Shown piece after piece: positions 6,591 through 45,821 of a stretch of DNA of 47,581 bases. The notes under the pieces are model-generated. The model had not been told where the DNA came from, did not search any database, and worked only from the letters and a program-made list of their open reading frames with translations. A program made the translations under genes and the position numbers. Source of the DNA: a virus; IMG/VR virus record IMGVR_UViG_3300033141_001371, positions 1 to 47,581 of that record; one strand, 5' to 3'. Numbering within the stretch: the first letter of the stretch is position 1; the number at the start of each line of letters is the position of its first letter.

Positions 6591-6817
6591 TACAAGACAC
6601 GATACGAGTATCTCGGGAGGTATTCAACATATTAGTAGGCATGTCCGACCAAATAGAAGCGAATAGGGAAGCCGTAACGGCCGTGAGCAACGGCCAAGAT
6701 ACACTGGAAATTATCGGGTCTGTATGTCTGGTAGTGATAGTGATATGTTTAGTAATTCTATTTGTAAAACAATCAAACTTTGAAGAGGTTGAGGAGAATG
6801 GAACTAGCAACGATTAA
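6587..6817 (+). CDS. Small single-pass membrane protein
   Basis: A 76-residue protein: an N-terminal soluble helix of about 40 residues, a clear hydrophobic span (about 42-62, Ile/Val/Leu/Cys) and an acidic tail. It starts at the ATG overlapping the preceding TGA (ATGA), with GGAGAGGAA upstream. Its 3' end overlaps the ParB-methyltransferase gene by 20 bases. Function unknown. Confidence 0.65.
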   Translation: MIQDTIRVSREVFNILVGMSDQIEANREAVTAVSNGQDTLEIIGSVCLVVIVICLVILFVKQSNFEEVEENGTSND

Positions 6818-8144
6818 CATTTCCGATATAGAAGTAGGGGAGCGGTTTCGGGTAGACATAGGGAATCTAAAGGAACTTATGGTGTCCATCCAGGAGGAGG
6901 GACTGATACAGCCCATAGCAGTAGCTAGACAGACGGAGCATAAGTACAAACTTCTAGCTGGCGGCCGTCGTCTCCGTGCCTGCCAGGAACTGAAGATGGA
7001 AAGTATCCCTGCTCGTATCTATCCTAAAGAACTAAGTGAATTGGACTCCAGAAGTGTCGAGCTGGCTGAGAACATCTACCGTAAGAGTCTGCGTTGGTCT
7101 GAGGAGTCCAAACTCAAGGCGGAAATCCATAGACTTCAGATAGCTAAGCATGGCGAGAAAATATCTAAGAACCCCGACGACACAGGATGGACTAAGGAAC
7201 AGACTGGAAAGATATTCGGGATAGGAGCGTCGTCCATAAGTGTCGACCTGGCTCTAGCAGCGGCGTTAAAGACCTTCCCGCAACTAGCAGACGCCAAAAC
7301 CAAGAAGGACGCTATAAAGTTCTTAGAGAAAACGAGTACAGACTATACACGTGCCCAGAAGGCCAGAGAGATAGAACATCGAGATGCCAAGACACCCGAG
7401 GATACTGTCCGAGAGAGGATAGCCGCCTCGTACATACTTAAGGATACGCTTCTCGGTATGTCCGACATTCCCGACAACAGTGTGGACTTTATAGACGCCG
7501 ACCCTCCGTATGCCGTAGGTAAGGAAGGTTCTGGATTACACGGAATAAAGAAGACGTCGGGCGGCGGACTCTCTGGTACGGAGGAATACACCGAGGTGAT
7601 AGACCATACCGAGTACCCTAAGCTTCTGAAGTCCTGGTATAAAGAATGCGGTAGAATACTTTCAGATACTGGCTGGATGATAGTGTGGTTCGGACCTCAG
7701 TGGTTTGACCAGACGTTAGGGGCTATACGCTTCGGAGGTATACAGACCCGTCATATGCCCTGTATCTGGGCGAAGGGCGGCGGACAAACTAACGTACCCC
7801 AGATATACTTGGCCAGTGGATATGAGCCATTCTTCTACGGCCATGGTGGTCGGGGTAATATAATCAAGCAGGGAAGGGATAACGTATTTAGCTTTAAGCC
7901 TGTAACCCCGACTGGGAAGATACATCCGACGGAGAAACCTGTCGAGCTAATGCAGGAGATTCTAGCTACGTTTGTAGAGCCTGGTTCGAGAGTGTTCGTA
8001 CCGTTCCTCGGCAGCGGCAACACCCTATTGGCAGCCAATAACCTCGGCATGTCGGGGTTCGGTTTCGACTTAAGTAAGAACTACCGAGACGCTTTTGTGG
8101 TTCGTGTATACGAAGGTAAGCCCAGAAACTACAGAAGTTACTGA
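6798..8144 (+). CDS. ParB-like domain fused to a DNA methyltransferase
   Basis: A 448-residue protein. Residues 1-100 form a ParB/Srx-type domain (INISDIEVGERFRVD, then LLAGGRRLRACQEL and a VELAENIYRKSL stretch). A linker of about 120 residues follows. The C-terminal half is an amino-methyltransferase with catalytic DPPY near 235 and the S-adenosylmethionine motif FLGSGNT near 402, so motif IV comes before motif I (beta class); KIHPTEKP is typical. It would methylate adenine-N6 or cytosine-N4 in a site chosen partly by the ParB part, probably to protect phage DNA from restriction. The ATG at 6798 has AGAGG nine bases before it; a TTG at 6780 is a weaker choice. Confidence 0.9.
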   Translation: MELATINISDIEVGERFRVDIGNLKELMVSIQEEGLIQPIAVARQTEHKYKLLAGGRRLRACQELKMESIPARIYPKELSELDSRSVELAENIYRKSLRWSEESKLKAEIHRLQIAKHGEKISKNPDDTGWTKEQTGKIFGIGASSISVDLALAAALKTFPQLADAKTKKDAIKFLEKTSTDYTRAQKAREIEHRDAKTPEDTVRERIAASYILKDTLLGMSDIPDNSVDFIDADPPYAVGKEGSGLHGIKKTSGGGLSGTEEYTEVIDHTEYPKLLKSWYKECGRILSDTGWMIVWFGPQWFDQTLGAIRFGGIQTRHMPCIWAKGGGQTNVPQIYLASGYEPFFYGHGGRGNIIKQGRDNVFSFKPVTPTGKIHPTEKPVELMQEILATFVEPGSRVFVPFLGSGNTLLAANNLGMSGFGFDLSKNYRDAFVVRVYEGKPRNYRSY

Positions 8145-8458: not shown

Positions 8459-10996
8459 GTGAATATCCAAGTCCCAGGCATAGGCCCTCTCGACGCTTCC
8501 ATTGCTATAGTGGGCGAGGCTCCTGGCGCCGACGAGGTCTACCACCGTAGACCATTCGTAGGACCAACAGGCCAGGAGTTAGACCGTATCCTTCGTGGTG
8601 TCGGTATAGTTCGGGAGGAATGCTACATCACTAATGTTATTAAGGAACGTGTCTCTAAGGACAAGACGGGAGCTATCACCGGATTCATAAAGCTCAAGAG
8701 GTCTGACGCTGATACTACATCGGCGTACAAGGAATATGAGGAGCTACTATACCAAGAACTCAGGGAATGCAGAGCCAATGTTATAGTCCCTATGGGGGGC
8801 ATAGCTCTATGGGCGTTGGCTCGTAAGGTCGGTGTAACTAGATGGAGAGGCTCCATACTACCGTCGGTTTCCTTGTCTCCTTCTCCCAAACGGATAGGTG
8901 AGGGTCTCTCCTCTAGTGATTATGTACGTAAGGTCGTGCCTACTATCCACCCAGCTACAACACTTAAGTACGGCGCGGCGGTGTCCTCGGAGACGGGCAG
9001 AGGGTTCAGTCCATACTTATACAGATACTACATCGCACATGATTTGAAGAAGGCTCTGAGCGAGAGCGGATTTCCCGAGATACAATATAGAGACAGAACA
9101 TACCACATAGCTCCCACAGTGGACGAGGTAAATAGATATCTAGACCTGTGTATGAATGCGGATAGAATAGGCGTTGATATTGAGACTAGCTACGGTCAGA
9201 TAGAGTGCATATCCCTCTCGCTCAACCCTACCAGTAGTATGTCTATCCCGTTTTTCTGGGACGGCCAGGAGTACTTCGATCTGGACACCGAGACCGAGGT
9301 CTGGAGACGCATAGCCAACATTCTCGAGAACCCCAACATTGTCAAGATAATCCAAAATGCTATGTTTGACTGTACTGTACTTCGTTCCCGTTACGGTATC
9401 AAAGTACGTAATATAGATGACACTATGATAGCCCATGCGGTAGCATTTCCCGACCTCCACAGGTCTCTTGAGTTTATGACCAGTGTCTATACCGACGTAC
9501 CGTATTATAAGGACGAAGGTAAGATATATTTCAAGGGTGGATACTCATCTCCGAGGGACTTTGCTATATATAATGCTAAGGATAGTATAGTCCTACACGA
9601 GATTATGGACAGTATAAACCACGACCTCGAACGTACAGCTAACACGGCTGCGTACCGTCAACAGGCGAAGCTAATCGAGCCTCTTATGTACATGGAGGAA
9701 CGAGGCATGAAAGTAGATGTCGAGAGGCTCGAGGTCGAGAAGAAGCGTATGCAGGAGATACTACAAACATCTTCGGATAAGTTCAAGTCCCAATGCGGCT
9801 ACGACATCAACCCTGACAGCCCTAGCCAGGTAATGGAATACTTCTACGAACGAAAGAAGCTAAAGCCATACGTCAAGAAAACCAGCGATGGTACCTGGGT
9901 ACCGACGGTGGATATCAAAGCCCTGAAACGGCTCTCGGCCAGAGGATATAAGGAGGCACACACGCTACTGAAGTTCAGAAAAGCCGCCAAACTCATACGC
10001 ACATACTTCGAGGTTACACTTGACGACGATGGTAGACTACGTAGTAGGTTTAATCCGGCACGCACCGTAAGTGGTAGGCTTAGTTCGTCTACTACCCTTG
10101 AGGGTACTGGTACTAACATACAGAATCTACCTCAAGATATGAGACAGTTTATTATCCCTGACGATGGGTATCTGCTGTTCAGCGCCGACCTTAGCTTGGC
10201 CGAGAAACGAGTCGTGGCGTATGTAGCCCCCGAACCCAGAATGATTAAGGCTTTTGAGGAAGGCATAGACCTACACTCACAGACCGCAGCTCTCATCCTG
10301 GGTAAGCATATAGACGAGATTAGCAACGAGTCCCGTTCCTGTTCCATCGGTAACGGCGAGGAGTCCGAGAGATTCTATGGCAAGAAAGCTAACTTTGGTC
10401 TCGACTATGGTATAGGTCCCGCTAGATTTGCCCTCGAACTGGAGATATCTCAGAAGGAAGCCAGGACTCTAATGGACATGTACTTCGCTGCATATCCAGG
10501 GATACTACATTACCATACTTGGGTTGAACGTAAGTTGTCTGAGGACATGACCCTCACCAACTGCATGGGCAGGAAGAGGCTCTTCATGGGCAGATGGGAC
10601 AAGAGTCTACTCGACTCCGCTTATGACTGGATACCACAGTCCACTGTGGCTGGTATTATCAACGAGTATGGACTGGGGGCTATGTACTACGACCAAGACA
10701 CTTTCGGCCCTGTAGAGCTGCTCAACCAGATACATGATAGTATAGTATTTCAGATACCCATATCCATAGGCTGGGAGGAGATGGCCCGAGTTATATGGGA
10801 TGTAAAGAAAAGTCTCGAGGTTACTCTTAAATGGGAAGATAGAGAGTTCGTTATACCCGCAGACTTCGAGGTGGGTCTGAACTTCAGGAAGGGCAGCGAG
10901 GAGAACCCCAAAGGTATGTATAAGATAAAGGTGAATGAGTATTTACCGAAGATATTAGAGGAGAGATATGCGAAGTTACAATCGAAGGCGGTATGA
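8459..10996 (+). CDS. Uracil-DNA glycosylase domain fused to family A DNA polymerase
   Basis: An 845-residue protein from a GTG start. Residues 1-200 form a family 4/5-type uracil-DNA glycosylase domain: GEAPGADE, RRPFVGPTGQELDRIL, YITNVIK, and TIHPATTLKYG near 165. Next is a 3'-5' exonuclease (GVDIETS near 238, NAMFDCTVL near 300, YNAKDS near 373). The polymerase follows: RTVSGRLSS near 540, motif A ADLSLAEKRV near 575, motif B RFYGKKANFGLDYG near 637-650 and motif C QIHDS near 756. It is the likely replicative polymerase, able in principle to act at uracil on the template. UDG-like domains on phage polymerases are known (SPO1), but the fusion is uncommon. Confidence 0.93.
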   Translation: MNIQVPGIGPLDASIAIVGEAPGADEVYHRRPFVGPTGQELDRILRGVGIVREECYITNVIKERVSKDKTGAITGFIKLKRSDADTTSAYKEYEELLYQELRECRANVIVPMGGIALWALARKVGVTRWRGSILPSVSLSPSPKRIGEGLSSSDYVRKVVPTIHPATTLKYGAAVSSETGRGFSPYLYRYYIAHDLKKALSESGFPEIQYRDRTYHIAPTVDEVNRYLDLCMNADRIGVDIETSYGQIECISLSLNPTSSMSIPFFWDGQEYFDLDTETEVWRRIANILENPNIVKIIQNAMFDCTVLRSRYGIKVRNIDDTMIAHAVAFPDLHRSLEFMTSVYTDVPYYKDEGKIYFKGGYSSPRDFAIYNAKDSIVLHEIMDSINHDLERTANTAAYRQQAKLIEPLMYMEERGMKVDVERLEVEKKRMQEILQTSSDKFKSQCGYDINPDSPSQVMEYFYERKKLKPYVKKTSDGTWVPTVDIKALKRLSARGYKEAHTLLKFRKAAKLIRTYFEVTLDDDGRLRSRFNPARTVSGRLSSSTTLEGTGTNIQNLPQDMRQFIIPDDGYLLFSADLSLAEKRVVAYVAPEPRMIKAFEEGIDLHSQTAALILGKHIDEISNESRSCSIGNGEESERFYGKKANFGLDYGIGPARFALELEISQKEARTLMDMYFAAYPGILHYHTWVERKLSEDMTLTNCMGRKRLFMGRWDKSLLDSAYDWIPQSTVAGIINEYGLGAMYYDQDTFGPVELLNQIHDSIVFQIPISIGWEEMARVIWDVKKSLEVTLKWEDREFVIPADFEVGLNFRKGSEENPKGMYKIKVNEYLPKILEERYAKLQSKAV

Positions 10997-11004
10997 ACCA
11001 GCCC

Positions 11005-11027
11005 CTTGTTTCGATTATCGAAACAAG
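11005..11027 (+). promoter_or_regulatory. Palindromic box 3 (before the primase-helicase gene)
   Basis: An exact 23-bp palindrome with centre T, left flank CCC and right flank CAAA. It lies nine bases after the polymerase stop and 20 bases before the GTG start at 11048. A naive frame running through it from a TTG at 11006 gives an N-terminus that is just the box read as protein, so the start was placed after it. Confidence 0.8.
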
Positions 11028-11047
11028 CAAACAATGATGGAGAACTT

Positions 11048-12232
11048 GTGTCGGAACGAAGACTGAACAACTGGCTAGACGGATATTTGGAGTACACTGA
11101 TAATACAGAACCTCCGGAAATCTATAGACTCTGGGTGGGAATCTCCGTTGTAGCCTCCGTTCTACAGCGTCGCTGCTTCCTTCAGTGGGACTCAAAAGTA
11201 TATCCGAATATGTATATTATACTCGTAGGTCCTTCTGGGAAATGCCGAAAGGGTACCGCCATGCGGAGCGGTCTCGGCTTCCTACGGGAGCAGGATGTAA
11301 CTCTAGCTGCCGACGCCACGACCAGAGAGGCTCTCATCAAAGCTCTGAAGAACGCCAAGTACAATGACCAAGATGCGGACGGCCGAATAAGAGTACACTC
11401 GTCTCTAACGATATTCAGCCAGGAACTTACAGTGTTCTTAGGCTATAGAAACAACGAACTTATGTCAGCCCTTACCGCCTGGTACGACTGCGATGACGAA
11501 TGGATATATAGGACGAAGCACCAGGGCGTAGACCACATAGTCAATGTATGGGTGAATCTAATAGGAGCTACTACTCCCGAACTCATCCAGGCTTCTATGC
11601 CGCAGGAAGCCGTCGGTGGAGGTTTGACTAGTCGCATGATATTTGTGTACGCGGCCAGAAAGGGTAAGAATGTACCGTACCCTAAGATGACTGAAAGAGA
11701 AGCGGAGCTCCGACAGCTTCTGAGTATAGACCTGAAGACCATATCTATGATAGGTGGTGAGTTCGCCGTGTCCGACGAATATCTCGATAAGTACGAGACA
11801 TGGTACAGTGAGTTAGAGAAGAACCCTCCGTTCGATGACCCTCGATTTAACGGATATATGGAACGAAGGTCGGTACATTTGAGAAAGCTCGGTCTTATTC
11901 TCAACGCCTGTAGAACGGACTCCAGAGTTCTCGATATTGAGGACTTTGATAGAGCTCTAGAAATTCTCGAGTACACCGAGCGTTCTATGAGACACGCCTT
12001 CGGAGGCGTCGGGCGCAGCGACATATCGGATCTCATGTATAGTATACCTACATATATAGCTAACGAGGGACAGGTGCTGATGTCGCGGTTGCTACGGAGG
12101 TTCGCACTAGACGCTGAGGAGTCGGACGTAATAAAGGTCATAGCCGCTCTTGAGCATATGAAGGAAATAGAGTGGTACTATACGGACGACAAGAGAGATA
12201 AAATAATAAAGTTTATAGGTATGGAGGAATAA
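11048..12232 (+). CDS. Primase-helicase-type ATPase (DUF3987-like)
   Basis: A 394-residue protein with a P-loop GPSGKCRKGT near residue 60 after a hydrophobic strand, a Walker B-like LTIFSQELTVFL segment near 120, and a conserved NLIGATTPELI ... GGGLTSRMIFVYA stretch near 175-205 typical of DUF3987 and phage replicative helicases. The C-terminal third is helical and contains a winged-helix-like end. It probably unwinds DNA with the polymerase encoded just before. The GTG at 11048 has TGGAG six bases upstream. No separate DnaG-type primase is visible in the genome. Confidence 0.75.
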   Translation: MSERRLNNWLDGYLEYTDNTEPPEIYRLWVGISVVASVLQRRCFLQWDSKVYPNMYIILVGPSGKCRKGTAMRSGLGFLREQDVTLAADATTREALIKALKNAKYNDQDADGRIRVHSSLTIFSQELTVFLGYRNNELMSALTAWYDCDDEWIYRTKHQGVDHIVNVWVNLIGATTPELIQASMPQEAVGGGLTSRMIFVYAARKGKNVPYPKMTEREAELRQLLSIDLKTISMIGGEFAVSDEYLDKYETWYSELEKNPPFDDPRFNGYMERRSVHLRKLGLILNACRTDSRVLDIEDFDRALEILEYTERSMRHAFGGVGRSDISDLMYSIPTYIANEGQVLMSRLLRRFALDAEESDVIKVIAALEHMKEIEWYYTDDKRDKIIKFIGMEE

Positions 12233-13261: not shown

Positions 13262-16200
13262 CTACTTAAGCCTTCTATATCTATAGAACGTCGGCAGTCT
13301 GTTTATCACTGAACTTGTTAGTACTTTTCTCTGCATCGGTGTTAGATATCTATACTTTGCCGACTGCTCAAAGCTTTCCCTCGTAAGTCCTAGCACAGCT
13401 GCGTCGTCCCATAGCTCTGCAGGAACCGAGAGGTTGGGCGCCGGAACTACATCAGGGAAGTATTCGGCGCCCTTTTTTCTTGCTTTCCTGAAGAAGCCCT
13501 CACCGAATACATGGTTAAGAATCCTATCCACGCACCTTTGTCTATTAGCCCGTAGCGCCTCGTCCTCTCTAGCCTGTATCTGCAAGAGTAAGTCCTGGCG
13601 AGCTTTCTCCATAGGCTTTGTACCTGCCAAGAGCAGAAGTCTGTCTGGCCAGTCAGCTCTATATACTCGTCTGTTCCGACTATCCTTAGTCCATCCATCA
13701 CTAATACAAGCGTCTATGAACTGGTCCCAATAATATAGTGCAGGCATAACGCCAGTAACTATGTCAGATATCGTCTCTCTTCCCAATACGTACTTATGCT
13801 GTTCGGCTATAGGTTGAATCACTAATTGATATAGCTTATATATGTCGGCTACAAATGGGCCGAAAGACTCTCGTGCTGTCCTTGGAAGTTGGTATATAGC
13901 CGGCGCTGTAATATCCGACTCCAGTACCGCTCCGGTAATTCCTCGTCCGTACTTCGGGAAGTACTTGTCCACCCATTCCTCAACACTTATACTTCCCATA
14001 TTCGGCTCGTCATCACCGCTTGGAAGCAGCCGCCAACCTAGCAGTAGCCCTATGATAGGAATACTCTTTATCATAGCTACAACTCCCCGCATACCGCCGA
14101 TTGTCAGCATGTAACCACCATATCTAGCCCAATGCTTACCGCTGAGCATGGTCATCATCTCTAGTTCCTTCACCGTATAGGTTCTGAACTGCCCAAGTAG
14201 CTTACCTGTAGGACTTCTGAGAATCCTGGGGATGTCAGCCGTATTGTACATGAAGTTCTGAAATCTCACGCCTTGAACGGCTGCCTCTCTGGCAGCGTCC
14301 TCAGACAGACCTTCTCTTCTAGCCATAAGATAATTAGCACACAGACCGACAGTTCTTACCGGCTTCTCAACCGATTGAAACGCCCATAGTGCCGACGTCT
14401 TCTTCAGCGAGCCTCTGTAACCACCTTCCATGACAGCGAACGTCGGAGCCACTCGTGGGAATAGGTCTTCGACGAGTGCCTTACCCTCTGATGTTCGGCT
14501 GAATATAGCCGCATCTCTCATTATCCCTGTCCCTGTCCATACCCATGTATGGTACATACCACTTATGTAGTTAACAAACGCAGCTACTGGTCTGTACCCT
14601 AACTTCATTTTGGCCTCGGTAGTCCTTACCCGCCCTATCCATCTAGAGTATCTCATTCCTCTACCGCCGAACTGATAGTCTACACCTAACTTTGGTAGGA
14701 AGTTATTCAGCCAGTCCTCGGCTGTCTCGACAATTTCATCAAGACGTCTATCACCCTCGTAGTACTTACCCTTAGCATCTTCGAGCTGGGCGAGCATTTC
14801 TTTCTGTAAGTTCGGGAACTCTCGGAATTTAGGGAGTGCCCTCCTCACATCTTCTATAACTGGGTCCAATGCCATCTTCTTGTGTATTGCATAGGAGTAG
14901 GCATACAGAGAATCAAATATATTCTTCTCGCCTTTGAGAACCCCCTTACGTTTCTGTAGAGGGCCAGCCATCTTATACCCTGGCTTAATCCGTGCAACCC
15001 CTCGAAGAGCTTCCTGTATGTCCTCCATATCCTTGTCGAGACTTCTGTAGAGCTTCGTTCTTAGAGCTCTATACGCCGTAGCATTCATCCACTCGGCATA
15101 GTCGCTGTAGCTACTAGTCTTCTCTATAAAGAATTCCTGGTTCTTCTTAATCTTGTGTTCAGCCATAAACTCCTTGATTTTCTGAACTGTCTCCGGCTTT
15201 GTCATAGCATAGCCTATTGTACCTTCCTTAGTACGAATTCTCCAGTTTCCTTTCTCGATGTTAGTAATATAGTCGTCGAGCAGCCAACTATCTATATCCT
15301 TATATCCTTCGAGGGCGGCCTTCAGTTGGTCTCTATGTTTACTACCAATACCAGCCAAGTCCCCCTGCGTAAGTCCTGTATCCAGTGCCTTATCGTATAG
15401 ATCTGCTATAGCCTTGGGCATACGCTTTCTGAACATCGTTCTCTTGTAGTCAAACAGCAGTTCCTTCATATAGTCAAAATAGTTAGCTACTTTACGAGCT
15501 AGTTCCTTAAGAACTGGGTCCTTTACTTCCCTGCCAGCTCTATAGTCTCGACAGGCCTGTCCTGACTGAGCCTTCTGTTCGTTGGTGAGACCTCTCTCCA
15601 TAGCTCGGAACGTAGATTGGTCTAGCGTTTGCATAGCCATAGCGACAGTCTGAGCATCACTAACGCTAAATATATGGTCTACGGCTTCCTGCACCAAAGC
15701 TGCATTCTTCACATCGCCAGCTTTCGCAAGCTTATTGACCAACCTCATAGCCAAGAAATACGGCGATGTCAGAGGAGCGAACATTGATAGTATGTCTTTG
15801 GGCTTTCTGACCTCGGTAATAATGGGGCTGCCGGTGAGTTCGGCCTGGACATTCTCGCCTTCGGGTTTACGCTTGAGACCTACTATGTCGGCCGACGTAA
15901 CTTTCCTCTCGACAGTTACTAAAGTATCATGTCTCTCCCCGCTATGGTTTATTACGAGAACCTCCTCCTTCCTGAACCCTCTACTAGCAGTCATGCCAGA
16001 GGTTTGCCATCCGAAGCTTATGACTAAGCCGCCTGGAGCTACAGCCCGAGCTATAGCGTCCTTTCTCGCCGAGACAGAACCGCGGGCCCTTAACTTAGCG
16101 GAAACCCCGTACGACGTCTTGGCCTGTCTAGCAGAGTACGGAGGGTCATATAAGACGCCGGCTAGCGACTCCCTATCGAAGGTGTTGAGGAAATCTAAAG

Positions 16201-19069
16201 CTTCCATATGGTGAGTCGTAGGTTTCTCGGGGTTGATGTCATTAGTGAACTCGGCTGGACTGTTCTCCCCGGCAAATGGGTCAGCCCATCCACGGCCGCC
16301 TTCGGGCACGTATCTACTGAGAAGTTTCTTCACTGGAGGCATCTTGAACGTATGTTTGGTAGGGAACGCCCAGGCCATCGACATCTTAGGTTCCCAGAAC
16401 GTGGGAGTGTGAGTCTGTCTCTGCTTAATCCACTTTCCTCCTTTCCTGTATGTCGCAACCCGAGCCTTACCTACTTGGCCCTCGCCCTTAAGCCTCTTCG
16501 TTATAGTTCCCTGATAGAACTCCTCACCGAGAATAGTAACTACATCATCGGCCGTGGGCTTGGTGAAGAGATGCTTTACGTACAGCCAGAAGCGTTTGAG
16601 CCAAGCTTCTATATCGGCCTTCATGGTTTTGTTCGAGACTCTATCGGTGAAGTATAGACTGACGGACTTGACAAGGTTCTCCTCCTCTGGGTCGCCTCTC
16701 CTTATCTGTTCCTCAGTTCTGGGCACAAGTCTTATACCCTCCTGAACTATATCAGTACCCTTAAGAGCTCCAATCAGAATATGTGCGAACTCTTCAGGTG
16801 GAGCGGACAGGTCTCCCTCCTTAGCCCATATGGCTATCTTTCTACCTATTAGGGACGCCCCCATCACTTCCTCTATCCGTCCTTCGGTGGGCTTCTCCTC
16901 ACTAAGCTTCGTAACATCTTCTCCCTGCCATGTTACGAATACCTTTTCCCATTCTTCGGTTGCTATGTCTGGATAGAGCTTCCTGAGTCTGGATATAATC
17001 TCCGACTTCAGCTCTGGAAATTCGCTCATCAACCGACCAGCTATGCTAGTTCTTGCGTACGCTATTCCCGAATCTTCTATATCCTGTACATCCTTTGCCG
17101 TAGGCTCTCTCTCTGCTAGTTCTTCTGCCGAAACCTCCGGTGGTACTGCTAGTTCCTCGGCTTCCTCCCACTCTCTCATCATATCTTCCTCAGCTATTCT
17201 CTCAGCTTCCCGGGCCTTAGCTATAGCCACGGCATCCGTTAGGTCCTTATCCTCTTTAGGAATTCTGCCCTCTCGTCGGGCTCGAAGCTTCTCCTGCTCT
17301 AATCTGGATTCCTCCGCCATACCCTTCTGTTCAGTCTCATACATACGTTGTTCTTTCAGAGATGCTACAGTCCTTCTGAAGTCATTGAACTCCTCCGGCG
17401 TATCAAACATGTGTCTAATTATCTTAGGATTCCTGGCCATAACCACCAAGGAATTTAGCTTACTGTTAATCGCAGCTGGACTACCTCCCTCCTCGATAAG
17501 GTCGATGAGTCCCCGTAGTTCGTATTCAGGGTCTAACGTAAGGTCTATGCCGGCGGCTTCGGCCTCTTCGGGAGTGGGTTTGGGAGCTGTAGCTGGGGCA
17601 CCTTTAATCTCCTCGGGCTTCTTCTCGGGAAGGACCTCCGCCGCCGCCTTAGTCGGTTCTGGAACCGTCTCCTCAACCTTGGCGGCCTCGGCCTCTTCCT
17701 GGAGGTTCCTTCGGAGCTGGCTTCTTAGCCTTAGCAGCTTTCTCCGATTCGCTACCTCTGACTTCATCCTCTTTCTGTTCCGGAACATAGCAACAAGTTT
17801 TGCATTATCTGCGGCTGCCAATTCCTTCTCTGTATAGTTGAAGTGCTCTCTCAGCATATCCCTCATCTCCTCGGCAGCCCTCTGTTCACCAGTAAGCCGC
17901 TCCGTCTTTGCTGGTGCCGCCGGAGCTTCCAGAACTTCCATAGACCTAGCTACGTTCTCTGCTTTCGTAGCGGCCTTAGCTCTAGCCGCTTTAGCTTTCC
18001 TCTCCATCATAGCGTTTATTTCGTCTATAACCTCCTGCTTCTCCTGTGGCGACGTGAGCCTTTCATGTATCTTAATACCGCCCCCAATTAGACCTCCAAA
18101 GAGAGCTACATTACCAGTTACGGGCCCGAATTGCTCTAAAAGCACTCCTTTAGCCGTAGGGTACTCCTCCAAGCCTTCCTCGGCCATAAGCCTCTGCTGA
18201 TTGTAGTTAGTGTAAAGTTCTGTTATCTGTTCTGATGTCAGAGTTCCAAGCATTCTCCCGAGAGCTGTTGTCCCTCCTTTGACTATAGCCGGGGCTTTTG
18301 TTACAGCAGGTAACAGAGCTTTCGCAGCCTTCGATAGTGGTTTACCTACCGCACCTTTAAGGATACCGAAGCCTAGGATATTACCTATAGCCTCTGGAAC
18401 CGCCTCGTAAGCTCCCGACTTAGACGCCAGATTCTCGTAGTCGTTGACCTCAACTATTCTACGCCACTCCCTCACGGTTAACGGTACACCACGCTCTTTT
18501 AGAGAAGCTATATTGGCTGCATAGAACAGAGAGTCCAGAACCTGGTCTCTTGTAGCTCTATAAGCTACACCAAACGAGGCTGCAAATGCAGCGGCGGCGC
18601 TTGAGCCCGGGACTGGTATCGGTAAAGTAACGGCACCAGCTCCAAGGGCTGCTCCCGCCGTTGCTAAAGTGTATCCAGAACTTGGAGCCATCTTTGCTAT
18701 GAATTTCATATAGGAAGGGCTCCGTTCCTGGGTATACTTTTTCATGTACTCGGCCTCGCCAGACTGTCCAAAGTCAATAACCCTGTCTATCCAGGAAGTC
18801 GATGTTCTATCTGGGTCTCCACCACGGATAGCTCGACCAAGAGTCTCTACAGCCCCCTTAGCCATACGGACTGGAGTTTCGGCGGCGAACTCTAATGCAC
18901 TGGGAGCTTTCGGTCTAAGCCCCGCGCCCTCCAGTTTGGACTCCACGGCCTCTAGCGAGGGCCCCATGTGGGGCTTCTCGGCCAGTGGCTCCACGGGTCT
19001 GAGTCCCATAGTCTCCAGCTTGGATTCTACGGCCTCCAGCGAAGGACCTTTTCTTTTCTGCTGAAGCAC
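13262..19069 (-). CDS. Giant polyvalent virion protein with embedded DNA methyltransferase
   Basis: A 1,935-residue protein from a GTG with GAGGTG upstream. The N-terminus carries two copies of an 18-residue unit (GPSLEAVESKLE.xGLRP) at about 8-25 and 36-53. A hydrophobic Gly/Ala-rich stretch (about 130-165) and a long charged coiled-coil region (about 340-720) follow. Near 760 is EEFAHILIGAL, like a degenerate metallopeptidase helix of polyvalent proteins. At about 890-1060 lies an amino-methyltransferase with WADPFAGE near 930 and YDPPYS near 976. The C-terminal 500 residues resemble the large polyvalent-protein C-terminal domains. As the last virion gene of a podovirus it is probably ejected with the DNA, where the methylase could mark the incoming genome. 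Subdomain names are inference. Confidence 0.8.
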   Translation of the reverse strand: MLQQKRKGPSLEAVESKLETMGLRPVEPLAEKPHMGPSLEAVESKLEGAGLRPKAPSALEFAAETPVRMAKGAVETLGRAIRGGDPDRTSTSWIDRVIDFGQSGEAEYMKKYTQERSPSYMKFIAKMAPSSGYTLATAGAALGAGAVTLPIPVPGSSAAAAFAASFGVAYRATRDQVLDSLFYAANIASLKERGVPLTVREWRRIVEVNDYENLASKSGAYEAVPEAIGNILGFGILKGAVGKPLSKAAKALLPAVTKAPAIVKGGTTALGRMLGTLTSEQITELYTNYNQQRLMAEEGLEEYPTAKGVLLEQFGPVTGNVALFGGLIGGGIKIHERLTSPQEKQEVIDEINAMMERKAKAARAKAATKAENVARSMEVLEAPAAPAKTERLTGEQRAAEEMRDMLREHFNYTEKELAAADNAKLVAMFRNRKRMKSEVANRRKLLRLRSQLRRNLQEEAEAAKVEETVPEPTKAAAEVLPEKKPEEIKGAPATAPKPTPEEAEAAGIDLTLDPEYELRGLIDLIEEGGSPAAINSKLNSLVVMARNPKIIRHMFDTPEEFNDFRRTVASLKEQRMYETEQKGMAEESRLEQEKLRARREGRIPKEDKDLTDAVAIAKAREAERIAEEDMMREWEEAEELAVPPEVSAEELAEREPTAKDVQDIEDSGIAYARTSIAGRLMSEFPELKSEIISRLRKLYPDIATEEWEKVFVTWQGEDVTKLSEEKPTEGRIEEVMGASLIGRKIAIWAKEGDLSAPPEEFAHILIGALKGTDIVQEGIRLVPRTEEQIRRGDPEEENLVKSVSLYFTDRVSNKTMKADIEAWLKRFWLYVKHLFTKPTADDVVTILGEEFYQGTITKRLKGEGQVGKARVATYRKGGKWIKQRQTHTPTFWEPKMSMAWAFPTKHTFKMPPVKKLLSRYVPEGGRGWADPFAGENSPAEFTNDINPEKPTTHHMEALDFLNTFDRESLAGVLYDPPYSARQAKTSYGVSAKLRARGSVSARKDAIARAVAPGGLVISFGWQTSGMTASRGFRKEEVLVINHSGERHDTLVTVERKVTSADIVGLKRKPEGENVQAELTGSPIITEVRKPKDILSMFAPLTSPYFLAMRLVNKLAKAGDVKNAALVQEAVDHIFSVSDAQTVAMAMQTLDQSTFRAMERGLTNEQKAQSGQACRDYRAGREVKDPVLKELARKVANYFDYMKELLFDYKRTMFRKRMPKAIADLYDKALDTGLTQGDLAGIGSKHRDQLKAALEGYKDIDSWLLDDYITNIEKGNWRIRTKEGTIGYAMTKPETVQKIKEFMAEHKIKKNQEFFIEKTSSYSDYAEWMNATAYRALRTKLYRSLDKDMEDIQEALRGVARIKPGYKMAGPLQKRKGVLKGEKNIFDSLYAYSYAIHKKMALDPVIEDVRRALPKFREFPNLQKEMLAQLEDAKGKYYEGDRRLDEIVETAEDWLNNFLPKLGVDYQFGGRGMRYSRWIGRVRTTEAKMKLGYRPVAAFVNYISGMYHTWVWTGTGIMRDAAIFSRTSEGKALVEDLFPRVAPTFAVMEGGYRGSLKKTSALWAFQSVEKPVRTVGLCANYLMARREGLSEDAAREAAVQGVRFQNFMYNTADIPRILRSPTGKLLGQFRTYTVKELEMMTMLSGKHWARYGGYMLTIGGMRGVVAMIKSIPIIGLLLGWRLLPSGDDEPNMGSISVEEWVDKYFPKYGRGITGAVLESDITAPAIYQLPRTARESFGPFVADIYKLYQLVIQPIAEQHKYVLGRETISDIVTGVMPALYYWDQFIDACISDGWTKDSRNRRVYRADWPDRLLLLAGTKPMEKARQDLLLQIQAREDEALRANRQRCVDRILNHVFGEGFFRKARKKGAEYFPDVVPAPNLSVPAELWDDAAVLGLTRESFEQSAKYRYLTPMQRKVLTSSVINRLPTFYRYRRLK

Positions 19070-38201: not shown

Positions 38202-38416
38202 GGCATATCCGATATTACGGCCTCCATAGATGTCTTAAGAGCTCGATATTCAGTTACCGCCACTTCCTTCTGCTCTTCGGTAACAGTAATTATATTGTCC
38301 TGAGCAAGGGAACTGAGCCGCTGCCACTCACGAGCAAGAGCAAGCATCTTGCTGGCGAGTGTGCCAAGCTCATTTACTTTAGTGTAGATTGTGTCAATCT
38401 TTTCGTTGAAAGTCAT
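38198..38416 (-). CDS. Hypothetical small helical protein
   Basis: A 72-residue, almost wholly helical protein with Leu/Ile heptad spacing (KIDTIYTKVNELGTLASKML). It starts eleven bases after the fibre gene's stop, with GGAGGAT before the ATG. It is probably a small coiled coil. Function unknown. Confidence 0.65.
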   Translation of the reverse strand: MTFNEKIDTIYTKVNELGTLASKMLALAREWQRLSSLAQDNIITVTEEQKEVAVTEYRALKTSMEAVISDMP

Positions 38417-38426
38417 AAATCCTCCG

Positions 38427-41306
38427 TTATGGTGCTCCGTTATGCCAGCCTGTTGCGTCGAGATAGCCTCGACAGGAACCGCCTATATAGAACACCAGGT
38501 CTGAGCCTACGAGCCTTATATAGCAGTTAGAACCCCCAAACTGAAGCTCGTAGCTAGTATGTATTCTGACATCGCTCCATACGTCCAAGAAAGTACCCTC
38601 ATATTTTATGAGAGAACTATTCGAACCGTCCTGAAAATATATGGAATTATATGTCTGCCTCATATGCTCGGTAGCTGCACTGCGCTTCTTTAGATAGAAA
38701 GCGGACTGGCTGCTAACATCCAATCCCAGTTCCACTATTACTGAACCTCCAGAGTCGTATCCCTTTAGATACGCAGCATACCCGTTCCCAGCCATCTCGA
38801 TTCTAGCACCGCTCGTAGCTCCGACCTCGACGCCAGTAGAATTCAGTATTACATCGCCAGCAGTCAGAGTACCATCGGTGATATTTATACTGGCATCGCC
38901 GAGTAGGGTCAGGCCGTCCGTCCCTATCCCAACCCTCCGTCCTGCATAGTCAGAGCCTCCGAAGCCTCCTGCACTACCCCAAACGCCGTAGACACCACCG
39001 GATAGATATCCCATAGCCGCCTTAAGAGCACTACTAACCCACACGGCAATCCGTGGGACAGAAGTTGAGGCTATCTGCATAACAGCACCGCTGACCGACT
39101 TAGCTATTTGGGAGCTGGATATAGTCCAACCACCTATAGTTCCGCCGGTAGCAGTTAGAGTGTCTGTAGTAAAGCTGCCCGTAACAGCTAACGCACTTCC
39201 ATTCCAAGTAAGCTTATCGCCCGAGGAATTTCCTATGGAGAACTTCGGTGTGCCAGAATCGTCGCCTATCCAGAAACCCACTCCATCGTCGTAGCCCGTC
39301 TGGCCACCTCTGATAGCAGCTCCACCGCTGGCCAGAATTAAGCCTCCGCCAGTTAGAGAAATGCCGCCTTCCACAGCAGTCAGAGTATGGTCAGCATTTG
39401 TAGGAGGTTTGGTTCCCGAAACATCGTCGGTATAATTAGCACTATCCTTCAGAGCTAGGTCTCCAAGACCATCTACCTTATCGTTAGGAATAGTATTTAC
39501 AAGGGTGATATTACCTTGTATAGTCAAAGTACCTTCACTAGCGTCCCACGAGAGACCTCCCGTTTCGCCCACAAGAAAGAAGTCGCCGGCGTTGTCCATA
39601 TAGGTAATCCAGGCATCGTCTCCGTTCCAGTATCCCATACGAGTAGAATTAAGATAGAGTCCAGCTACACTATTTGCCAGTAGAGGAGCAGGTCTACCTG
39701 TTATGGACTCCCACGAGAAGTCTTGGTTTTCTGCTGTGTTATCGGCATTTGCGGGAGGCTTATCTCCAGTTAGAGATTCATAAGCGAAGTCTTGGTTTTC
39801 TGCTGTATTGTCAGCGTTAGGGCCTACATCAGTTATTTCGGAGCTAGAAATCTCATCCACCAAGGCCAGACCTCCAAGACCGTCTACCTTACTGTGAGGA
39901 AGCGTATTTACAAGGGTAATAGTACCCTTAACTATCAAATTGCTGCCAGTGTATTCTATGTAGTTGTTAGGGTCCTTGTAAAACTTGAAGTATCCATCCT
40001 TACTAATGTAAGACCTCCATTCACCGGTAGTATAATATCCTATATAATTAGCAGTGATGTAAAGTCCATCGCTGGGAGTTGCCGCCAATTCAGCTAGATC
40101 TCCAGAGTCCGAAAGATTCCCTAATCCAGAACCTCCTCTTATAGTAACAGTACCTTTAATCTCCAGATTACTACCAGTATACTCTATATAGTTATTGGCA
40201 TCCTTGTAGAATCTGAAGCTTCCGTCAGCCTTGATGTATGTCGAGGTAGCTTCCCAGTTAGTACCGTCATAATACCCCATGTAGTCTACACCGAGATACA
40301 ACCCAGCGGAACTAACATTAGCATTCTCGTCGTTGACGACTCTAGCCAGAATTATCTCGCCAGACCTTATCTGAGTACTTTTAACTTTACTAAACCCACC
40401 GCCGTCAACTATATTACTCAGATTCCCGTAACATGTAGACAGCTTTATATGGCCAGCCTCAAGGTCAGTAACAGATATAACATCCTTACCCTCGCCAATC
40501 TCGGTCTCGCCGTCGTCCTTCACTATCTTGGACAGCATAATCTTGCCGGCGGATATACAAGTACTTTTAACTTTACTAAACCCACCGCCGTCAACTATGT
40601 CGCCTAGATTTCCATAGGTACTCCCCAGCTTTATCTGCCCCGTCTCAGCGTCGAGGTCTATATAGTTTACAAGAGCCTTGCCTTCACCGGCCTGAGTTTC
40701 TCCGTCATCCATCAGCAGAGCTGACAGCTGTATATGGCCATCGGTAATATCGGTCTTCTTTACCTTGTCATAAGTATCGCCCAAGGCTAAGTCGTCGTAA
40801 GTACCATAGAGTCCAGTAATAGTAATCTGTCCAGATGTTATGTAAGTGGACTTAACCTTAGCGTAGGTGTCTCCATCGGGGATATTGTCTATATTCGTTA
40901 TAGCATTACCTTCAGCATCTACAATAGAGCCGAACTCTATATGTCCGTCGACAATGTCGCCTGCTGCTACCCTTTTAAACAGATCTCCATCACCGATGTC
41001 GTCTAGGGTACCAGCCACATCAGCTAAAGTACCTATAGCCTCGGACAAAAGGATAGCTCCTTCTTGTAGAGACTCCAGAGCTATCTTGCCGTAGACAGTA
41101 CCATCAGGAATATCGTCAAGGGTATTGACTGCGATACCAGGGAAATCGCCCGTAGCCTCTACCGATATATCACTACGAATGACCTCTACTGACGTTTGTT
41201 GTTGAGTAACTTCAACAACATTCGTAGTTTCGTCAACTTCCACAGACGTCGGGGATTGAGCAACTTCAACAACAGTCTCGGTCTTTTCAACTTCGACATC
41301 ACTCAT
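38427..41306 (-). CDS. Long tail fibre / host-specificity protein
   Basis: A 959-residue protein with many repeats. The first 50 residues hold short (S/N)VEV(A/T)Q-type repeats. Residues 50-330 contain repeats of the kind (D/S)GxIxLS...DDGET..GEGK and a GGGFSKVKST unit. The middle has GLYLxxxxMGYW and FKFYKDPNNYIEYTGSNL units, and the C-terminal part (about 700-959) is Gly/Ser-rich. This layout is typical of trimeric phage fibres that bind the host surface. The start overlaps the preceding gene by eight bases. The fibre has no signal peptide, unlike the two fibre-like proteins further downstream. Confidence 0.8.
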   Translation of the reverse strand: MSDVEVEKTETVVEVAQSPTSVEVDETTNVVEVTQQQTSVEVIRSDISVEATGDFPGIAVNTLDDIPDGTVYGKIALESLQEGAILLSEAIGTLADVAGTLDDIGDGDLFKRVAAGDIVDGHIEFGSIVDAEGNAITNIDNIPDGDTYAKVKSTYITSGQITITGLYGTYDDLALGDTYDKVKKTDITDGHIQLSALLMDDGETQAGEGKALVNYIDLDAETGQIKLGSTYGNLGDIVDGGGFSKVKSTCISAGKIMLSKIVKDDGETEIGEGKDVISVTDLEAGHIKLSTCYGNLSNIVDGGGFSKVKSTQIRSGEIILARVVNDENANVSSAGLYLGVDYMGYYDGTNWEATSTYIKADGSFRFYKDANNYIEYTGSNLEIKGTVTIRGGSGLGNLSDSGDLAELAATPSDGLYITANYIGYYTTGEWRSYISKDGYFKFYKDPNNYIEYTGSNLIVKGTITLVNTLPHSKVDGLGGLALVDEISSSEITDVGPNADNTAENQDFAYESLTGDKPPANADNTAENQDFSWESITGRPAPLLANSVAGLYLNSTRMGYWNGDDAWITYMDNAGDFFLVGETGGLSWDASEGTLTIQGNITLVNTIPNDKVDGLGDLALKDSANYTDDVSGTKPPTNADHTLTAVEGGISLTGGGLILASGGAAIRGGQTGYDDGVGFWIGDDSGTPKFSIGNSSGDKLTWNGSALAVTGSFTTDTLTATGGTIGGWTISSSQIAKSVSGAVMQIASTSVPRIAVWVSSALKAAMGYLSGGVYGVWGSAGGFGGSDYAGRRVGIGTDGLTLLGDASINITDGTLTAGDVILNSTGVEVGATSGARIEMAGNGYAAYLKGYDSGGSVIVELGLDVSSQSAFYLKKRSAATEHMRQTYNSIYFQDGSNSSLIKYEGTFLDVWSDVRIHTSYELQFGGSNCYIRLVGSDLVFYIGGSCRGYLDATGWHNGAP
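40377..40599 (-). repeat. Direct repeats in the fibre gene
   Basis: A 38-bp stretch at 40377-40414 recurs almost exactly at 40561-40598, about 184 bp away. It encodes the GGGFSKVKST unit. The near-identity, unlike the diverged flanks, suggests recent recombination or gene conversion between repeats. Confidence 0.7.
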
Positions 41307-42230: not shown

Positions 42231-42491
42231 TTACCCTCCTAACTTACCCTCTATACGTCCGAGCGTAAGAGCTTGCTCATCCAGCTTACTGAATATCTTG
42301 CCTTGAGTATCATGTATACGCTTAAGTTCCTGATTAAGAGCCTCGTGCCTAAGATTGCACATGTCTTTAGTTACTGTATTACTGTTGTTCCTGCTTCTCT
42401 TGAGCCAGTCAAACACTATCTTAGTCATAAGCGTTACCATTCCTCCTGAGAGTATAATGTCTACAACTGTGAAAGACTCCAAACATATCAC
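42231..42491 (-). CDS. Small membrane protein with coiled coil, holin-like
   Basis: An 86-residue protein with one hydrophobic segment (about 9-27) and a charged helical tail with heptads (EALNQELKRIHDTQGKIFSKLDEQAL). It would start at the GTG overlapping the previous TGA; an AGGAGGA also lies just before an internal ATG at 42437, followed by another ATG at 42425. Two starts are thus possible, as in phage holins with a longer antiholin form. The proximity to an endolysin-like gene supports a lysis role. Confidence 0.55.
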   Translation of the reverse strand: MICLESFTVVDIILSGGMVTLMTKIVFDWLKRSRNNSNTVTKDMCNLRHEALNQELKRIHDTQGKIFSKLDEQALTLGRIEGKLGG

Positions 42492-43242: not shown

Positions 43243-43394
43243 TTCCTTCTCCTGGTTGGTTCCCAGCCATGAGCAACGCCACGTAGTAAGTTCAGTGCCT
43301 TCTTAGCCGCACTCACGCTTCCACAGCGTTGTTTGACCTTCCATTTGCCGCCTACCTTATGGTAAATAACCTTACCTACTCGTTTATTCGGCAT
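43239..43394 (-). CDS. Small basic hypothetical protein
   Basis: A 51-residue basic protein starting MPNKRVGKVIYHKV, with a short beta pair (KVIYHKVGGKWKVKQ) and a helix (AAKKALNLLRGV), ending in Arg/Lys. Its ATG lies eleven bases inside the terminase small subunit gene and its stop overlaps the next ATG (ATGA). The composition fits a small nucleic-acid binding protein. Function unknown. Confidence 0.6.
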   Translation of the reverse strand: MPNKRVGKVIYHKVGGKWKVKQRCGSVSAAKKALNLLRGVAHGWEPTRRRK

Positions 43395-43878
43395 CTTGAG
43401 TCTCCTCAACTTCTATCTCTTCGGCGTCCAATCTTCTGGCCGCCTCCTTGATTTCCTGCAGGGTTTCTCCAGTTACGTGAGCATGGAGATGTCGAGACTC
43501 CATCACATGCTTTTCACCGAAGCCAGCTCTCGCCAGCATAGACTCAGCCGTCTTCGCCCGCAGTGCCAACGAAGCTCCTTCGCCTTCGTTAACACCTTCT
43601 ATAATCTCTCCGAGCAACTTCAAACCTTTAGGCGCTATTTCTTGTATGTGGTTAGCTATGTCGATAGACTTGGCATCTCTAGCGGATTGCATAATGCGGA
43701 GTTGCCGTTTGGTAATTTCGCTGTTTGCTATATTACCTACTGTAGCTGTGGTAATTCCGAGGTCTCGGGCAATATCCACCTTCTTCCTTCCCAGGACTAA
43801 TTGCCGAAGTACCTCGTGGTGTTGCTCTTGTATTCTTTGCAGTTGATATTGCCGTGCTACTCTAGGAAATCGGCCCAT
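43384..43878 (-). CDS. Terminase small subunit-like DNA-binding protein
   Basis: A 164-residue protein. Residues 33-55 form a helix-turn-helix (KKVDIARDLGITTATVGNIANS), followed by long helices and an acidic C-terminus with a Leu/Ala zipper-like part. That fold pattern and its place as the first gene of the packaging and structural unit suit the terminase small subunit, which recognises phage DNA for packaging. A transcriptional regulator role is the alternative. The ATG has GGAGGTTTG upstream. Confidence 0.65.
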   Translation of the reverse strand: MGRFPRVARQYQLQRIQEQHHEVLRQLVLGRKKVDIARDLGITTATVGNIANSEITKRQLRIMQSARDAKSIDIANHIQEIAPKGLKLLGEIIEGVNEGEGASLALRAKTAESMLARAGFGEKHVMESRHLHAHVTGETLQEIKEAARRLDAEEIEVEETQDAE

Positions 43879-44121: not shown

Positions 44122-44154
44122 ATATTACATTCAAATGCCGTTCTTTGACAATTG

Positions 44155-44174
44155 TTTCACACCGTGTCCGTTCC
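44155..44174 (+). repeat. Inverted repeat, left copy
   Basis: TTTCACACCGTGTCCGTTCC. Its complement recurs at 44653-44670 as GGAACGGACACGGTGAAA, identical except for a two-base AC gap. The pair encloses the gene at 44199-44627. No target-site duplication is evident outside the pair. Confidence 0.75.
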
Positions 44175-44198
44175 CCATAAAAGAAATGGAGGAACGTC

Positions 44199-44627
44199 AT
44201 GGAAACAAATGGATTTTTTACGTCGGATGAATTGTCATATACATTGACAACACGTCCAAAGAATGCGCCGGACGGTACGGCCGGAACCAAAACACGGGTA
44301 ACAATCACGGGGTTAATGTCGGCAACCGAGGATACAATAAGAGAATATATCGAGCGTGGTTCACGGGTGCCCGTACAATCCAGGATACGCCCCGAAAGTG
44401 TGGATGATACCCCAGCACCAGAAACGTACGAGGTTGACGTAAATACGTTGTTGGGTCGTGGTGCCGTACGGATTGAATATGTACCGTTGACACCCGAACA
44501 ACAGATAGCAGCCCAGAAGGTTGTTATCAAACGGCGAAATCCGAACATTTCCGAGGTCGAATGCCATAATCTGGCGATTAAAGAAATTACCGAGGCATTC
44601 ACAAAACGGAAAAAACAAGAGAAATGA
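44199..44627 (+). CDS. Unrecognised 142-residue protein in an inverted-repeat cassette
   Basis: A soluble protein with a beta-rich N-terminal half (RVTITG, VPVQSRIRPES) and a helical C-terminus with a basic end (TKRKKQEK). GGAGGAAC precedes the ATG. The codons (more GAA, CGG, ACG, GTA) differ from the GAG/AGA-rich neighbours, and inverted repeats bracket the gene (44155-44174 and 44653-44670). It is the first gene right of the divergent region, so it may be expressed early. I do not recognise the family. It may be a moron or mobile cargo gene. Confidence 0.7.
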   Translation: METNGFFTSDELSYTLTTRPKNAPDGTAGTKTRVTITGLMSATEDTIREYIERGSRVPVQSRIRPESVDDTPAPETYEVDVNTLLGRGAVRIEYVPLTPEQQIAAQKVVIKRRNPNISEVECHNLAIKEITEAFTKRKKQEK

Positions 44628-44683: not shown

Positions 44684-44716
44684 AATCCCTTGTTTCGATT
44701 GGTGAAACAAGGGATT
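44684..44716 (+). promoter_or_regulatory. Palindromic box 9, extended variant
   Basis: AATCCCTTGTTTC (44684-44696) and GAAACAAGGGATT (44704-44716) pair perfectly over 13 bp around the loop GATTGGT. The central half-site ATCGA is lost on the right while the outer arms are the longest of all. It ends 21 bases before the ATG at 44738 and precedes a GGAGGA. Confidence 0.78.
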
Positions 44717-44737: not shown

Positions 44738-44926
44738 ATGGCTAAGATATACGATACAATACAAGAGGACGTGGTGTCGGTGGACAGCCACGTTCCAGAG
44801 CATGAATGCTCCGAACACTTCCATGGTTGGGGAGCCGTTTTACACACTGAGAATGGTACTCGGAAAAAGATGGGTCATTGTGATATATGTGGAAGGAAGA
44901 TGACCAGGGTGTATCGGAAACATTAA
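44738..44926 (+). CDS. Small Cys/His protein, likely zinc-binding
   Basis: A 62-residue protein. A His/Cys cluster (HVPEHECSEHFH near 18-29) is followed by CDIC near 48-51 and a basic RKH end. The mix of His and Cys ligands suggests one zinc site. GGAGGA precedes the ATG, and box 9 lies before it. The frame can be opened further upstream only by reading through the box. Function unknown. Confidence 0.65.
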   Translation: MAKIYDTIQEDVVSVDSHVPEHECSEHFHGWGAVLHTENGTRKKMGHCDICGRKMTRVYRKH

Positions 44927-44937
44927 CGGGGGTAATT

Positions 44938-45174
44938 ATGGGTAATTGTCCGGAGAAAGGGTGCGACGGTACGATGAAAATGTTGTCGGTGTACTCGTCG
45001 CCGTCCTTATTCGTAGCTACATTTGCATGCGACAAGTGCGGACGTTCTGACGAAGCCCGTACGTGCACACCGATTATTACTCGGTATGTATGGAGAGGGA
45101 TAGAGGTAGCACTGGAGGCAGCAGATATCGATGATAAGAACATCGAGGACGATATAAAAGATATACTGAAGTAA
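44938..45174 (+). CDS. Zinc-ribbon-like small protein
   Basis: A 78-residue protein with Cys-x4-Cys (CPEKGC) near residue 4 and CDKC near 32 framing two strands, a zinc-ribbon pattern, and then an acidic helical C-terminus (ALEAADIDDKNIEDDIKDILK). The ATG has GGGGG nine to ten bases upstream; upstream in-frame ATGs lie inside the previous gene. It ends just before the AT-rich iteron region at 45189. It might bind that region, but this is only proximity. Confidence 0.6.
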   Translation: MGNCPEKGCDGTMKMLSVYSSPSLFVATFACDKCGRSDEARTCTPIITRYVWRGIEVALEAADIDDKNIEDDIKDILK

Positions 45175-45188
45175 TGTTTGCTTGTTAC

Positions 45189-45353
45189 GTTTACATAAAA
45201 TTGTAGGTTTTGTAGGTTTTGTAGGCTAGGTACATTATAAACACATATAATAATATTATTATATATATATATATATACAGGTTTACATAATATAAAAAAT
45301 ATATATTATATATATATGATGAGGGTAGCCTACAAAGCCTACAATGCCTACAA
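45189..45353 (+). other. Putative replication origin: inverted iterons around an AT-rich core
   Basis: Three TTGTAGG units (45201-45207, 45210-45216, 45219-45225) with a 9-bp period face three CCTACAA units (45329-45335, 45338-45344, 45347-45353) with the same period. The arms form a 28-bp inverted repeat (25 matches). Between them lie about 95 bases of nearly pure A/T with long TA runs. GTTTACATAA occurs at 45189-45198 and 45281-45290. The gap has no gene. This layout is typical of iteron origins with a DNA-unwinding element; an RNA or cruciform hairpin is the alternative. Confidence 0.6.
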
Positions 45354-45382
45354 ATTGACACAAATGAAACAAGGGAGGAACA

Positions 45383-45553
45383 ATGGACAAGGACGAGATG
45401 AGTATCGAAGAGTATCTCAACAGCTCGTGCGTGATAGAAATTATGTATCACGTATTGAGAAGAGAGAAGAAGCTATCACATAGGGAAGCAGTAAGGAGGC
45501 TCAAGGCTTGGGTGGATACTGTTACGGGGATAGCACTGTTGGACTACAAATAA
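45383..45553 (+). CDS. Small helical protein next to the iterons
   Basis: A 56-residue charged helical protein starting MDKDEMSIEEYL, with GGGAGGAAC before the ATG and a basic middle (RREKK, REAVRRLK). It begins 30 bases after the last iteron and may have a role in binding it, an inference from location. It is followed directly by the next gene's AAGGAGGAAC. Function unknown. Confidence 0.6.
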   Translation: MDKDEMSIEEYLNSSCVIEIMYHVLRREKKLSHREAVRRLKAWVDTVTGIALLDYK

Positions 45554-45562
45554 GGAGGAACG

Positions 45563-45769
45563 ATGGACAAGTTAGAGATTTATGACATCACCGTGCTTAA
45601 GACAGACGGTACGTATGTGAGACTTACCGGGACGTGGGAACTGTATATTAAGTTCATTAGTATACACGAGTACCACAAGGTGGACGATGAGTGGAAAAGC
45701 TCACAGACTTCCTACATGTTCAACTGGAATTTTATCGACGAGATACGCCGTCGTAGAATTTCGGGATAA
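45563..45769 (+). CDS. Hypothetical small protein
   Basis: A 68-residue protein with a short beta N-terminus (KLEIYDITVLKTDGTYVRL) and an aromatic, His-containing middle, ending in a basic RRRRISG. It shares AAGGAGGAACGATGGACAAG around its start with the previous gene (GGAGGAACAATGGACAAGG), suggesting copied leader sequences. Box 10 follows its stop by eight bases. Function unknown. Confidence 0.6.
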   Translation: MDKLEIYDITVLKTDGTYVRLTGTWELYIKFISIHEYHKVDDEWKSSQTSYMFNWNFIDEIRRRRISG

Positions 45770-45777
45770 CATCATTG

Positions 45778-45800
45778 CTTGTTTCGATTATCGAAGCAAG
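45778..45800 (+). promoter_or_regulatory. Palindromic box 10 (before the gene at 45822)
   Basis: CTTGTTTCGAT then ATCGAAGCAAG: one T facing G, otherwise the consensus, with a flanking GC pair on each side. It ends 21 bases before the ATG at 45822, eight bases after the previous stop. Confidence 0.78.
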
Positions 45801-45821
45801 CAAATTAAACAGGCGGGCACT

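Follow-up and report, generated by a model that had tools for sequence, protein, structure and literature searches.

The window considered here, a viral record of 47,581 nt taken as a whole, is circular, with a 114-bp end repeat through which position 47467 runs on into position 1. Its genes form two divergent blocks. The late block is on the minus strand from about 43.9 kb down to 13.3 kb, and the early block is on the plus strand from 44.2 kb across the join to 13.3 kb, coding for a ligase, an exonuclease, a Sak4-like annealing protein, a ParB-methyltransferase, a DNA polymerase and a DUF3987 helicase-like protein. The repeat element that a sequence-only reading had singled out as a likely origin of replication is between these blocks, some 1.3 kb into the early one, and leads into the replication genes. 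That reading placed it upstream of the replication genes on the circular map, and since the record is circular those genes are indeed reached by following the plus-strand early genes across the join. The features relevant to what follows are given here by position in the window.

80 to 108, plus strand: weak sigma70-like promoter, TTGAAT-17-TATATT, picked by eye ahead of the candidate binder gene
136 to 471, plus strand: gene for the candidate iteron-binding protein, 111 aa, with a ribbon-helix-helix (RHH)-like pattern, about 2.2 kb downstream of the element, across the join
8459 to 10996, plus strand: DNA polymerase, with uracil-DNA-glycosylase domain, 3'-5' exonuclease and family A polymerase in a single chain
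11006 to 12232, plus strand: DUF3987 helicase-like protein of the replication module
43384 to 43878, minus strand: small terminase-like gene (TerS), first in the late operon; a synteny landmark, and the binder candidate if the element were a packaging site
44199 to 44627, plus strand: first early gene, 142 aa, upstream of the element, with a weak SSB-like match below cut-off
44690 to 44715, plus strand: terminator-like hairpin CTTGTTTCG..TGAAACAAGG, read from the sequence, before the small-gene block that holds the element
45201 to 45225, plus strand: left iteron array, three TTGTAGG with a 9-bp period (lag 9 significant against shuffles), within the arm 45201-45228
45229 to 45325, no strand: A+T-rich core, 86% A+T by base composition, a putative unwinding element
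45329 to 45353, minus strand: right iteron array, three CCTACAA, inverted relative to the left, within the arm 45326-45353
45778 to 45804, plus strand: second, similar hairpin GCTTGTTTCGATTATCGAAGCAAGC, read from the sequence, after the small-gene block

Several of the surrounding genes merit comment in their own right. The product of the first early gene appears by eye to be of the same family as the relatives' first early gene and a paralog of that of 1484-1879; this unnamed conserved early family (39 genomes) is apparently present in two copies in many relatives, one opening the early block just before the element and the other further down. Both hairpins are built on CTTGTTTCGATT, and they bracket the element's small-gene block. 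The polymerase is a fusion, with a uracil-DNA-glycosylase-superfamily domain N-terminal to its exonuclease and family A polymerase domains, and 6780-8144 specifies a ParB_N domain fused to an N6/N4 DNA methyltransferase, a fusion kept in several relatives. The 1935-aa late protein encoded by 13262-19069 has a weak sulfotransferase-like stretch and matches a PHROG named DNA methyltransferase.

Repeats, arms and core

The three TTGTAGG words of the left array start at 45201, 45210 and 45219 and the three CCTACAA words of the right array at 45329, 45338 and 45347, so that the identical 9-bp spacing noted at the outset is present in both. The 28-bp arms, 45201-45228 and 45326-45353, match at 25 positions, again as had been described, and as a spaced inverted repeat the element scores 19, with 13 being the maximum in 30 dinucleotide shuffles of the genome and 11 the score of the genome's next-best. 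The tandem pair TTGTAGGNNTTGTAGG, allowing up to two mismatches, occurs four times, all in the element (shuffles: mean 0.33, maximum 3). Single TTGTAGG words elsewhere mean little, since the window has 17 copies of the word where 6.9 would be expected. The intervening DNA, put at about 95 bp and TA-rich in the sequence-only reading, is a 97-bp core that includes a short A6 tract at 45294-45299, and the most A+T-rich 100 bp of the genome are at 45217-45316 (87%). The gap 45174-45383 holds no credible gene, in agreement with the initial description, and a promoter scan of the window gave no good sigma70-like promoter beside the arrays. Six iterons, a 25/28 inverted repeat and an A+T-rich core are together far beyond chance.

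Cumulative GC skew, which had been suggested as a check on the origin, was of no help. Its minimum (44176) and maximum (13261) fall at the two transcription switches; skew here tracks gene strand and transcription and was discarded as uninformative.

The site across related phages

Relatives were gathered by polymerase, terminase and helicase searches, and whole records were oriented and rotated to the TerS gene. They constitute a large phage family, almost all of it uncultivated, plus one annotated genome, that of Desulfofustis phage OP947158. Every genome was then put through a de novo inverted-repeat scan that allowed a spacer of 30-420 nt and was blind to iteron sequence. The top inverted repeat was within 5 kb of TerS on its early side in 25 of the 36 genomes with a mappable TerS, where about 4 would be expected, that zone being 10.6% of the sequence (binomial p 8e-17, with the genomes treated as independent though they are partly kin). 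The arm sequences are unrelated: CTATATT in one genome (G012), TGTTTTCTC-type in the Desulfofustis phage, GTGACTCGC in G018 and CATGTACC-type in G033. A second statistic, local 8-mer clustering, pointed to the same place in many genomes and added three (G023, G036 and G053), and the layout in G020, missed by the scan, was found by eye. There are genomes that yielded no clear element, G031, G044 and G046 being examples, and G029, whose perfect 71-bp arms stop exactly at the contig end, was left out because the assembly may have folded back there. The borders of arrays were in part drawn by eye, and several of the contigs are linear. The ends of the linear contigs G021, G030 and G032 meet inside the element core, probably reflecting assembly breaks at the A-tract or inverted repeat.

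As judged from these genome comparisons, position and architecture are conserved across the family and sequence is not; such fast turnover of sequence with constancy of layout and place would fit a rapidly evolving replication start site. The iteron word itself was tried as the conserved feature and rejected: a scan of viral contigs for TTGTAGG triplets yielded 60 stretches, none with the layout of the window, and many of them are apparently coding repeats. Among contigs so encountered, long TTTGTAGG tandem arrays (L006, L023, L027, L031 and L047) look coding, with Leu-Gln-Asn repeats on the reverse strand, and are unrelated to the element. Non-coding TGTAGGG clusters in both orientations are present in two unrelated viral contigs (L053:6150-6950 and L056), the former having at least three with A+T-rich DNA between. 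An open-access literature search found no description of the two-sided iteron arrangement.

The anatomy of the site recurs in some detail. A tandem period is significant in the arms of 22 of 27 genomes, usually at 6-10 bp and most often at 9. Proceeding inward from the arrays there is often a C-run on each side and then a core, often with an A-tract, the A-run being longer than the T-run on the early strand in 21/28. Of 28 genomes, 10 have sigma70-like promoters no more than 100 bp beyond the right edge of the right array, where the background rate predicts about 1, and strong matches are present at the left array in G027, G036 and G045. The arrays are unequal in length or copy number between sides in G012, G025 and G027, for which reason protein-binding sites fit better than an RNA stem, and in G036 GTAATT hexamers are paired with GTATTT hexamers. 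A core flanked by two inward-facing iteron arrays is how DNA that melts between protein-binding repeats would be expected to look.

Four distant annotated phages with the same type of helicase again have their top inverted repeat in the early leader, at the following positions.

40665-40790, Vibrio phage VS-ABTNL-3 (L380): site with clear 7-bp repeats and C-runs
44129-44291, Microcystis phage Mel-JY34 (L381): comparable site
38405-38613, MW202489: comparable site
42319-42422, Pseudomonas phage 119X: less convincing site

The two-sided layout is probably older than the family. An HMM of the RHH-like family described below found no member in these four phages.

A candidate for the binding protein

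No initiator is detectable in 44738-45769, where the sequence-only reading likewise saw none. The candidate proposed here is encoded further on, by 136-471. Clustering of early proteins brought together its family from 33 genomes, and with a profile it is found in 37 of 41. The family pattern is a short strand ending in Arg and two helices with a Ser-x-Ser-x-Leu turn between them, and in 8 genomes the gene begins 16-100 bp to the right of the right array. The AlphaFold monomer (mean pLDDT 87) has helices at 14-26 and 34-53 after an extended N-terminus and contains no strand; the helices are placed as expected for an RHH monomer, the fold predicted here. Pfam, PHROGs, a PDB sequence search and Foldseek gave no support for that fold. 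This family is the best candidate for the putative binder of the arrays.

A natural pair of genomes, G017 and G018, bears on what recognizes the iterons. Their terminases, polymerase, helicase and exonuclease are about 90-97% identical (TerS 91.6%, TerL 95%, Pol 89.5%, Hel 96.7%); both arrays have been replaced, though the flanks still align over most of their length and the core in part, and the candidate binder is only 62.3% identical. A swap of arrays with near-constant TerS, polymerase and helicase argues against any of these as the recogniser. Family-wide, iteron similarity correlates with the putative contact strand of the candidate (Mantel r 0.20, p 0.002) and equally with the polymerase (r 0.21, p 0.002), so that tracking of the iterons by the contact strand is inseparable from phylogeny and was dropped as evidence for the binder. 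Glu at the putative contact position goes with TAGG-containing iterons (4/6 versus 1/21, p 0.004), a post hoc link that is a lead only.

Function of the site and its parallels

The segment is most likely a cis-acting nucleoprotein site in which inward-facing iteron arrays surround an easily melted core, and of the roles such a site could have, that of phage replication origin is the most likely, with about an even chance of being right. It is favored because arrays and a melting core occur together at the site, because the replication genes follow it, because it is the foremost site of its kind in most of these genomes and because it partly resembles the origins of SPP1 and c2. As in phage iteron-type origins, where clustered repeats are beside an unwinding region, repeats and an A+T-rich core are both present and the early-region location is kept in relatives (25/36); the candidate initiator family (37/41 genomes) is often adjacent to the repeats and changes with the iterons. 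The original proposal of initiator sites plus an unwinding element is partly supported: the shape it described is real and family-wide, and GC skew adds nothing to it. Going by gene order, forks leaving the element would be co-directional with both transcription blocks.

Many of the features counted for an origin would be seen with an operator or a centromere as well. Might the site instead be solely an operator of the early operon, where an RHH-like protein on the arrays would loop out the core and shut down early promoters, that of its own gene among them, with no part in replication? The sigma70-like promoters by the right array (10/28), those at the left array in G027, G036 and G045, and the frequent presence of the binder gene directly downstream would suit such a role, and R1 parC offers a precedent for repression by split arrays with a promoter between them (PMC5016525). 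Yet a plain operator has no need of an A-tract core of 40-300 bp with C and G runs at its borders, or of the two long arrays facing inward that almost all family members have, and the window is without a good promoter beside its arrays. An operator function in addition to that of origin is likely; it may be the only function, though that is rather unlikely. A centromere-like partition or tethering site, with an RHH centromere-binding protein on split arrays in the manner of ParR-parC, omega and ParG, is an improbable alternative. Type Ib and type II partition systems are typified by RHH proteins bound to short tandem iterons with overlapping promoters (PMC5016525), and phages can have segregation-like systems such as AlpAC/alpS (PMC5539076), but neither the window proteins scanned nor the annotated products of the Desulfofustis relative include a ParM, ParA or TubZ-like NTPase, the helicase is without plasmid relatives and no integrase or partition gene was seen.

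Constant proximity to TerS, whose gene is about 1.3 kb away, could suggest a packaging (pac) site bound by TerS. The pac site of phage P1 also has short repeats at both ends. A pac site should change with TerS, however, and G017 and G018 have unrelated arrays despite the 91.6% and 95% identity of TerS and TerL; similarity between arrays is not significantly correlated with TerS identity (Mantel p 0.13) and the site is in the early leader rather than the late operon, so that packaging is very unlikely. No more probable is an RNA element, the inverted repeat acting as a long hairpin in the early leader transcript. The window sequence does fold strongly as RNA (z -7.8), but strong folding is common to any inverted repeat, the arrays of G012, G025 and G027 are unequal, G036 pairs unlike hexamers and no Rfam family scored above threshold. 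Transcription purely as a structured RNA, which the sequence-only reading would have counted against an origin, is weakened as an objection since array lengths and copy numbers often differ between sides in relatives.

Returning to the origin, its operation can be envisaged as follows. An RHH-like phage protein from the early region, encoded a little downstream, would bind the arrays cooperatively and thereby clamp or bend the DNA at either side of the A+T-rich, A-tract core. The core would then melt, giving the DUF3987 helicase and family A polymerase a place to load. Bound beside early promoters, the protein would also regulate its own gene. The fuller proposal, that an RHH-type protein is the replication initiator of a large, mostly uncultivated phage family, acting on a fast-changing two-sided iteron origin of which close relatives carry different and probably incompatible types, is tentative and on balance doubtful. 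Confirmation of the binder would establish a new class of phage initiator. The swapped arrays would then be a natural series in which to follow how initiator and site co-evolve and how superinfecting relatives escape cross-talk. The signature, inward-facing arrays, a melting core and a linked small DNA-binding protein, is independent of sequence and locates the probable origin in dozens of uncharacterised phages; isolates with comparable sites (VS-ABTNL-3 and Mel-JY34) exist and are usable for experiments.

How does the site compare with known systems? P4-type origins have short iterons in both orientations near an A+T-rich stretch. They are bound by a primase-helicase, whereas in G017 and G018 the helicase is nearly unchanged though the iterons are swapped. 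Plasmid R1 parC/ParR shares two iteron arrays, an RHH binder and autoregulation (both predicted here) and a promoter-holding spacer, but its arrays are direct rather than inverted, its spacer holds the par promoter and it requires the ParM NTPase, with none found among the window proteins scanned (PMC5016525). The TP228 parH/ParG and pSM19035 omega sites similarly have RHH proteins, direct and inverted short repeats, A+T-rich stretches and promoter overlap, and differ in serving ParA-type partition, for which no such ATPase was found here (PMC5016525).

Two phage origins also resemble the site in part. In the early replication region of Bacillus phage SPP1, oriL and oriR have repeats next to an A+T-rich unwinding element bound by the origin-binding protein gp38; unlike the present element, the SPP1 repeats are described as direct rather than as inverted arrays on both sides, there are two origins with oriL inside gene 38, and gp38 has as partners a helicase loader and a DnaB-type helicase, neither of which was found in the window phage (PMC6316719). 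The lactococcal c2-type (Ceduovirus) origin is driven by a non-coding transcript without phage proteins, unlike what is proposed above, and the account drawn on describes no inverted iteron arrays (PMC7150918). It is nevertheless non-coding, flanked by early promoters and between divergent early and late blocks, with origin types that are unrelated in sequence within otherwise similar phages, as in the present family, and that in c2 are not interchangeable (PMC7150918).
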